The translations under genes and the position numbers were made by a program. A model generated the notes under the pieces. It ran no database searches, had not been told where the DNA came from, and worked only from the letters and a program-made list of their open reading frames with translations. This document shows positions 4,053-6,589 of a DNA stretch of 64,000 nt, one piece after another (position 1 is the first letter of the stretch; the number at the start of each line of letters is the position of its first letter). The stretch comes from Haloarcula sp. CBA1129 (GTDB lineage Archaea; Halobacteriota; Halobacteria; Halobacteriales; Haloarculaceae), in the NCBI RefSeq assembly GCF_008729015.1, contig NZ_RKSM01000001.1:2604001-2668000 (forward strand), in the 5' to 3' direction.

Positions 4053-5033
4053 ATGAGTGACGCGGACGGCGGTCCGAAACAGGTCTCGGACCCGGCCTAC
4101 CACAGCGAGAACCACACGGCCGCCCAGACCTGCGGCTGGACCAAAAACGCCCTGCGCGGCGAGGGGAAGTGTTACAAGTACATCTTCTACGGTATCGAGT
4201 CCCACCGCTGCATCCAGATGACGCCGGTCGTCAAATGCAACGAGCGGTGCGTGTTCTGCTGGCGTGACCACGCCGGCCACGCCTACGAACTCGGTGACGT
4301 GGAGTGGGACGACCCCGCGGCGGTGGCCGACGCCTCCGTCGAACTCCAGCGGAAACTCCTCTCCGGCTTCGGCGGCAACGACGAGGTCCCACGCGAGGTG
4401 TTTGATCAGGCGATGGAACCGCGCCACGTCGCCATTTCGCTGGACGGCGAGCCGACGCTGTACCCCCACCTACCGGAACTCATCGAGGAGTTCCACGACC
4501 GCGATATCACCACGTTCCTCGTCTCTAACGGGACCAACACGGAGATGCTGGAGCGGTGTGACCCGACGCAACTGTACGTCTCCGTCGACGCCGCTGACCG
4601 GGGGACGTTCGATTCGACGGTGCAGGCGATGGAAGACGACGCTTGGGACTCGCTCATCGACACGCTGGACGTGCTCGCCGAGAAGGACGACACTCGTACC
4701 GTCATCCGGACGACGCTGGTCAAGGGCCACAACATGCACCACCCCGAGTGGTACGCGGCGATGTGTGACCGGGCTGACGCGGACTTCGTCGAGATGAAGG
4801 CGTACATGCACGTCGGCCATTCGCGGGGCCGTCTCGACCGCGACTCGATGCCCGACCACAGCGAGGTCCGGGCGTTCACACAGGAGATGGGTGAGTACCT
4901 GCCCAACCACGACGTGCTGAAAGAGGTCGAGGACTCCCGCGTGACGATGCTCGCCGAAGACGAGAACACGTGGGTCCCGAAACTGGAGAAATCGAGCGAG
5001 TTCTGGGAACAGGACGCGCTCGTGGACTACTAG
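4053..5033 (+). CDS. taw1: tRNA 4-demethylwyosine synthase (radical SAM)
   Basis: A 326-residue radical-SAM enzyme. Taw1/TYW1 condenses N1-methylguanosine-37 of tRNA-Phe with pyruvate to give imidazo-fused 4-demethylwyosine, the first step of wyosine formation. The radical-SAM cluster motif C-x3-C-x2-C is visible as CNERCVFC near residue 66. It is preceded by the family's [13 protein letters not shown] stretch and an upstream conserved Cys (TCGWTK). SGEP-type motif LDGEPTLYP and the MKAYMHVG motif follow. The ATG at 4053 is preferred over the in-frame TTG 15 nt upstream. The archaeal form lacks the eukaryotic flavodoxin domain, and this length fits. Confidence 0.93.
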
Positions 5034-5173
5034 CTGCAACGGCGATAGGGAAGCGCAATCACAGCAGTGTGATGAGACTGAACGTGTTAGGCAGCGGTTT
5101 AAATTGTGTTCGTGACGGAGCGTTAGGCGCGCTTCTGCTACCAACCCTATACCAGTTTTTTGCCGTTCCAAAA

Positions 5174-5189
5174 GTGGAATGCATTCCAC
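5174..5189. promoter_or_regulatory. Perfect 16-bp palindrome, candidate RbkR operator
   Basis: GTGGAATGCATTCCAC reads the same on both strands. It sits 41-56 nt before the rbkR start codon. A TATA-like element (GCTTATCC, about 5198-5205) lies between it and the gene, so the palindrome abuts the TFB recognition side. A dimeric winged-helix protein such as the product of the adjacent gene would bind this kind of site. RbkR-type kinases are known to regulate archaeal riboflavin genes. That this exact palindrome is the operator is inference. Confidence 0.6.
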
Positions 5190-5229
5190 CTTCGGTATGC
5201 TTATCCGGCGGGAATCCCTACCTGACTGC

Positions 5230-5928
5230 ATGGCTGAATCAACGGGACAGGGCGTCGGTCGGGACGAGCTGGCGACGCTGAAACTGCTCGCCCTCGACGG
5301 GGCGCTCGACGAGTCGACGAAAGTGTCCTGTGCCGATCTCGCGGAACGGCTGGACGCCTCGAACCAGACTGCCTCGCGGCGGCTCCAGCGGCTTGAAGAC
5401 GCCGGACTGCTGGCCCGGGACATTGTGAGCGACGGGCAGGAGGTCGAGCTCACTGGGGACGGCGAACGGCGTCTCCAGTCTGAGTACGCCGACTACCGGC
5501 GCATCTTCGAAGCCGACGCCAGCGTCGACCTGACCGGCGTCGTCACCTCGGGAATGGGCGAAGGGCGTCACTACATCACGCTGCCGGGCTACATGGAGCA
5601 GTTCATCGAACGGCTGGGGTACGAGCCGTTTGCAGGCACGCTCAACCTCGAACTTACGTCCGAAAGCGTCCGCAGGCGAGCGCGGATGAGCGCTATCGAG
5701 CCCGTCACCATCGAGGGCTGGGAGGACGACGAGCGGACGTACGGCCCTGCGTACTGCTACCCCGCCTCGATAGAGGGGAGCGACGGCGAGTACGAGCCGG
5801 CCCACGTCATCGCGCCCGAGCGGACCCACCACGGCGAGGAACAGCTCGAAGTGATCGCACCAGAGAAGCTCCGCGAGGTGCTGGAACTGGCCGACGGTGA
5901 CGAGGTGATCGTCCATGTCTCGGAGTGA
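5230..5928 (+). CDS. rbkR: CTP-dependent riboflavin kinase / regulator RbkR
   Basis: A 232-residue bifunctional protein. Residues about 15-80 are a winged helix-turn-helix ([20 protein letters not shown], then wing). Residues about 95-232 are the archaeal riboflavin kinase domain, which makes FMN using CTP. Kinase-domain marks are [24 protein letters not shown] and the C-terminal [17 protein letters not shown]. Riboflavin kinases fused to an HTH are RbkR regulators of riboflavin synthesis. The ATG at 5230 lies about 27 nt after a TATA-like element, so the transcript is probably leaderless. The gene overlaps ribB by 14 nt, which implies an operon and coupled translation. Confidence 0.9.
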
Positions 5929-6589
5929 GGACACTGCCGTCGACGCCGACAGCGTGGCCGACGCTGTCGCCGCTTTCACCCGCGGCGAGCCAGTGCTCGT
6001 CCACGACGCCGCCGACCGCGAAGGCGAGACGGACCTCGTCTATCCGGCGGGTGCCGTCACCCCCGGAGCCGTCGCCCGGATGCGGAACGACGCCGGCGGC
6101 CTCGTCTGTGTTGCCCTCTCGGACCGCGTCGCCGACGCGCTGGAACTGCCGTTCATGCAGGAGGTCCTCGACCACCCCACCGCGGCCGACCACGACCTCG
6201 CGTACGACGAGCGCTCCTCGTTCTCGCTGACGGTGAACCACCGCGACACGTTCACCGGGATTACCGATGAGGACCGCTCGCTGACGATTCAGGAACTGGC
6301 CGCCGTCGCGACCGACCCCGACCCCGAGGCCTTCAGCGAGGCGTTCCGGTCGCCGGGCCACGTCCACCTTCTCCGAGCGGCCCCGGACGGCCTGTCCGAC
6401 CGCGAAGGCCACACCGAACTCGCGCTCGCGCTCGCGGCCGCGGCCGACCTGCCCGAGGCCGCCGTCGTCTGTGAAATGCTGGACGACGAGACCGGCGCGG
6501 CGCTGCCCCCGGCGGCGGCGCGGGCCTACGCCGACCGCGAGGGCCTCGTGTACGTCGAAGGCGCAAGCCTGCTAGAGCGGTTCGACTGA
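5915..6589 (+). CDS. ribB: 3,4-dihydroxy-2-butanone 4-phosphate synthase
   Basis: A 224-residue cytosolic Mg-dependent enzyme. It turns ribulose 5-phosphate into formate and the four-carbon unit used to build the riboflavin xylene ring. Active-site residues are visible: the acidic loop [12 protein letters not shown] near residues 35-46 (family D-x-E-x-E-x-D), [14 protein letters not shown], the T/H-containing [12 protein letters not shown], and [11 protein letters not shown] plus GHTELA near the end. It starts inside the 3' end of rbkR. A rbkR-ribB operon lets FMN formation feed back on synthesis, if RbkR responds to FMN as in characterised archaea. Confidence 0.93.

Follow-up and report, generated by a model that had tools for sequence, protein, structure and literature searches.

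A 32-bp element upstream of rbkR in Haloarcula sp. CBA1129 is probably the operator by which the regulator RbkR acts on the promoter of its own operon, rbkR-ribB. This reading rests on conservation of the element at rbkR and on a motif trained on rbkR promoters, which also precedes arfA and riboflavin synthase genes of other haloarchaea; as the operator predicted for a known family of regulators it is well supported by sequence comparison. The centre of the element is a perfect 16-bp palindrome, which a preliminary description of the window (the whole 64-kb stretch of DNA analysed here) had put forward as the site of autoregulation of rbkR-ribB. That interpretation is right in direction, and conservation together with the arfA and ribC sites gives the proposed autoregulation in silico support. 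The 16-mer did not hold as the definition of the site, and the motif needs to be redefined as the 32-bp array.

The features of the locus are given in Table 1. The family is characterized by a winged HTH at the N-terminus, joined to a CTP-dependent riboflavin kinase domain, and RbkR has this architecture, with matches to Pfam HTH_20 at residues 26-62 (4.2e-8) and to CTP-dep_RFKase (PF01982) at residues 105-230 (1.2e-43). Residues 32-230 align with the T. acidophilum 3cta/5trd chain (E 5.1e-34). Against the NCBIfam equivalog NF010762 the protein scored 224.9 bits, short of the cut-off of 279. Seven diverse members compared share a nearly invariant putative recognition helix. The start of ribB overlaps the end of rbkR by 14 bp, and upstream of rbkR lies a tyw1-like gene of the same orientation. 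The position of the TTAT core is conserved, with 1.85 bits in the TATA columns of 73 aligned representatives. A passage of PMC4983044 describes TTWT as the haloarchaeal form of the TATA core and leaderless transcripts as the commonest in Haloferax volcanii (72 percent). The distance between TATA box and ATG implies that the rbkR transcript is probably leaderless.

Table 1. Features of the rbkR-ribB locus, in positions of the window
Feature	Position	Strand	Remarks
Operator (predicted), four half-sites	5166..5197		Conserved at rbkR, 80/82 genera
Half-site 1, TTCCA	5166-5170		One of four alternating half-sites
Half-site 2, TGGAA	5175-5179		One of four alternating half-sites
Half-site 3, TTCCA	5184-5188		One of four alternating half-sites
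Half-site 4, CGGTA	5193-5197		One of four alternating half-sites
16-bp palindrome	5174..5189		Operator centre, junction of half-sites 2 and 3
TATA-box core, TTAT	5201..5204	+	Matches haloarchaeal TTWT; 26-29 bp before ATG
rbkR	5230..5928	+	Winged HTH and CTP-dependent riboflavin kinase, 232 aa
ribB	5915..6589	+	TIGR00506, 6.4e-64, above its cut-off

The palindrome, GTGGAATGCATTCCAC, is exact and has a TATA element nearby, as first described; the gap to the ATG of rbkR is 40 bp and not 41. It is the sole perfect 16-bp palindrome of the window, and its 16-mer occurs once in the 4.05-Mb genome. No long credible ORF accounts for the site, and the tyw1-like gene stops at 5033, which agrees with the earlier statement that nothing coding explains it. 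In first-order Markov sequences matched in composition, perfect 16-bp palindromes numbered 2.8 per 64 kb on average, with at least one in 58 of 60 sequences. The palindrome by itself therefore proves nothing: it is not above chance, and it was rejected as a stand-alone statistical signal. The significance of the site rests on cross-genus conservation, not on the perfection of the palindrome. We give next to no credence to the readings of the palindrome as a chance occurrence, as an RNA hairpin or as part of a riboswitch: about 2.8 such palindromes are indeed expected per window, but the element is conserved across genera between flanks at background level. It also lies upstream of the predicted TATA box, so that it is probably not transcribed. 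FMN riboswitches are RNA leader elements that confer FMN-dependent control on riboflavin genes. They resemble the present system in the control of riboflavin genes by FMN, which is predicted here, and differ from it in being part of an RNA leader, whereas no Rfam family, the FMN riboswitch included, was matched up to E 1 between 4900 and 5400; an RNA element was rejected on this ground.

Conservation was assessed on one rbkR locus from each of 82 genera. A 43-bp element scored above 18 in 76 of these loci and a free scan added four, so that an operator-like element centred on the palindrome precedes rbkR in 80 of the 82 genera, as the preliminary description would require; two loci (L072 and L098) had no recognisable site in the free scan. 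The distance from the element to the start codon is practically identical in 75 genera, 6-7 bp shorter in two, and in three loci of families f5 and f11 the element lies at or over the start codon. Mean information in 73 aligned representatives was 1.18 bits for the operator columns versus 0.03 for the distal flank. Among 24 Haloarcula loci the operator was 91 percent majority-identical, and the sequence that precedes it 54-63 percent. The exact 16-mer is far less widespread: it was found in 11 of these 24 promoters, in five of the 26 named records taken from Haloarcula and further haloarchaea, with H. japonica and H. argentinensis among the five, and among the 82 genus representatives in the window's own locus only. 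Confined to part of Haloarcula, it was rejected as the motif; what could define a haloarchaeal RbkR motif, as had been suggested of the palindrome, is the conserved 32-bp array.

Some loci depart from the common arrangement. At L107, L109 and L110 (families f11 and f5) the rbkR operator covers the start codon instead of lying upstream of the TATA box, and at L107 the array seems to run further upstream with extra half-sites. Second, divergent rbkR-like genes were seen in two genomes, at G180:C2 (L111) and G370:C7 (L112), the latter genome having a further truncated one; the gene at L111 has an operator-like site of its own, and none is clear at L112.

The array has the consensus TNNCR N4 YGNNA N4 TNNCR N4 YGNNA, the orientation alternating every 9 bp, and stops 3 bp short of the TATA box. 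A scan for dyad axes in 76 sequences showed three axes, spaced by 9 bp, with distinctly higher complementarity (0.52, 0.57 and 0.50). The middle one, that of the 16-bp palindrome, had the highest mean of all axes tested; a weaker fourth axis was located at the TATA box (0.41), and the remaining ones did not exceed 0.35. The first T of half-sites 1 to 4 is kept in 71, 76, 71 and 75 of the 76 sequences, and the C at position 4 in 73, 75, 74 and 75, while the central palindrome is perfect in just two. Bases of different half-sites covaried weakly (H1-H3 position 2, p 0.0025; H1-H3 position 5, p 0.006; H1-H2 position 3, p 0.007), and these p values, drawn from 30 comparisons in which relatedness is ignored, carry no weight as evidence. 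Neither 10 nor 35 promoters, operator-bearing ones kept in, yielded a clear BRE consensus, so that only its position suggests that half-site 4 overlaps the BRE.

Sites at other riboflavin genes were searched with a sequence-only model (R1) built on 53 of the 76 rbkR promoter sequences. On the genome of the window it recovered the rbkR site (E 4.6e-7) and nothing convincing beyond it, the second match (E 0.138) falling inside a carboxylase-like ORF. Among 80 other genomes, 75 were matched with E no higher than 0.05, almost always at rbkR; extra matches were located at the start codons of riboflavin synthase genes (L119, L121) and before arfA-like genes (L122, L123). An rbkR-trained matrix was then applied to arfA, ribC and ribH of 40 genomes, the gene set being incomplete for some of them. 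It gave more than 5 bits for 11 of 38 ribC genes (controls, 0/951), for 13 of 43 arfA genes (controls, 3/428, counted without separating real operators of those loci) and for one of 32 ribH genes. The search before further riboflavin genes proposed in the preliminary description, done here with the array in place of the 16-mer, thus gave sites at a part of the ribC genes and at a single ribH gene. A second model (R2), combining 30 rbkR with 20 arfA/ribC sites, was applied to 40 further genomes whose arfA and ribC had previously been unexamined; 14 of its 18 non-rbkR sites lay directly before arfA or ribC, or 16 of 23 when five further sites were added.

The same site is therefore found before other riboflavin genes in relatives and not in the window's own genome, where none was found at arfA (-13.8), ribC (-11.2) or ribH (-19.6); nor did any arfA or ribC site score above 0 in five Haloarcula genomes, this one included. 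The sole link to RbkR in the window's genome is thus that the site precedes its gene, and the RbkR response would be limited there to rbkR-ribB. Weak matches away from riboflavin genes (L118 and L120 with R1; L308, L309, L310, L313, L316, L318 and L319, seven of the 23) are unexplained or due to chance. With an E of 5.7e-4, one of them, L118 (G060:C1:1362746-1362779), matches the operator well; it lies between genes resembling an epimerase and an alcohol dehydrogenase, and no riboflavin gene was seen there.

Operators also occur at divergent riboflavin synthase genes, whose products share 40-49 percent identity with that of Haloarcula. Those at L224 (G164), L230 (G031), L231 (G104), L232 (G178) and L233 (G182) belong to second copies in their genomes; at L306 (G238) the operator is followed by the divergent synthase gene and then by a ribH-like gene. 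Genome G044 (family f8), given as 99 percent complete, has rbkR, ribC and ribH and no match to GTP cyclohydrolase III (PF05165).

Since binding of RbkR to the element is a prediction and haloarchaea have many winged-HTH proteins, the site might belong to a different transcription factor controlling riboflavin genes. We consider this quite improbable: the element marks rbkR itself in nearly all genera, its secondary sites fall on riboflavin genes, and RbkR is present in every genome of the class examined (391/391).

If RbkR is the ligand of the array, a pair of dimers may occupy the two 14-bp inverted repeats; alternatively, a single dimer may first bind the central palindrome. Bound RbkR would cover the zone just upstream of the TATA box where TFB binds, leading to repression, and the kinase domain would tune the binding according to its CTP and FMN state. 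Repression at rbkR is, in our judgement, reasonably likely. Assuming leaderless starts, the 42 arfA/ribC sites scoring above 0 are placed upstream of the TATA zone (19), over the TATA zone (20) or over the start (3). This freedom of placement, with 23 of the 42 overlapping the TATA zone or the start, favours steric repression, as do the rbkR operators over the start codon in three f5/f11 genomes.

RbkR might instead bind the same site as an activator, recruiting TBP/TFB to a weak promoter from just upstream of the TATA box at low FMN and being released by FMN. The spacing between operator and TATA box is rigid in 75 of the 82 genera, and placement is nearly the same at six ribC promoters (L181, L300, L301, L303, L312 and L320). 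In a study of RbkR from 2017, FMN reportedly suppressed and CTP stimulated DNA binding; these effects fit activation more readily than repression by the end product, the loss of binding with FMN being what an activator would need. Activation is nevertheless hardly workable at the 23 arfA/ribC sites and the three f5/f11 rbkR sites that overlap the TATA box or the start, and we regard it as possible at rbkR, although doubtful. One operator with two signs, by which RbkR would activate rbkR-ribB and repress wherever the array covers the TATA box or the start, appears unlikely. The repressed set may then comprise many arfA and ribC promoters and rbkR of the f5/f11 lineages, and relocation of the array within Halobacteria would have reversed how the regulator controls its own gene. 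The analysis exposes a testable conflict between the placement of the sites, which suggests repression, and the reported ligand logic of RbkR, which suggests activation.

The 2017 study is said to have described RbkR regulons and operators in 94 archaeal genomes, the operators varying between lineages. The present system would share with those regulons the domain architecture of the regulator, a riboflavin regulon that includes rbkR itself and the location of operators at promoters; it differs in that the operators there reportedly vary by lineage, whereas an array of four half-sites alternating every 9 bp is described here for Halobacteria. PMC8305020 refers to that study for HVO_0326, the rbkR gene of Haloferax volcanii, and notes in its Table 6 that MJ0056 has no N-terminal HTH; this CTP-dependent riboflavin kinase, alignable with residues 101-228 of RbkR, is an enzyme only. 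A predicted RbkR regulon in Pyrococcus is mentioned in a part of PMC10746257. Among the papers searched, these two alone use the name RbkR, and the matches listed showed no haloarchaeal operator; this does not show that the motif is unpublished, and it may already be contained in the 2017 study.

A single palindrome has thus led to a defined and testable haloarchaeal operator and to a predicted riboflavin regulon comprising rbkR-ribB, arfA and riboflavin synthase genes. The distribution of sites suggests that in Haloarcula this regulon has been reduced to the operon of the regulator itself.
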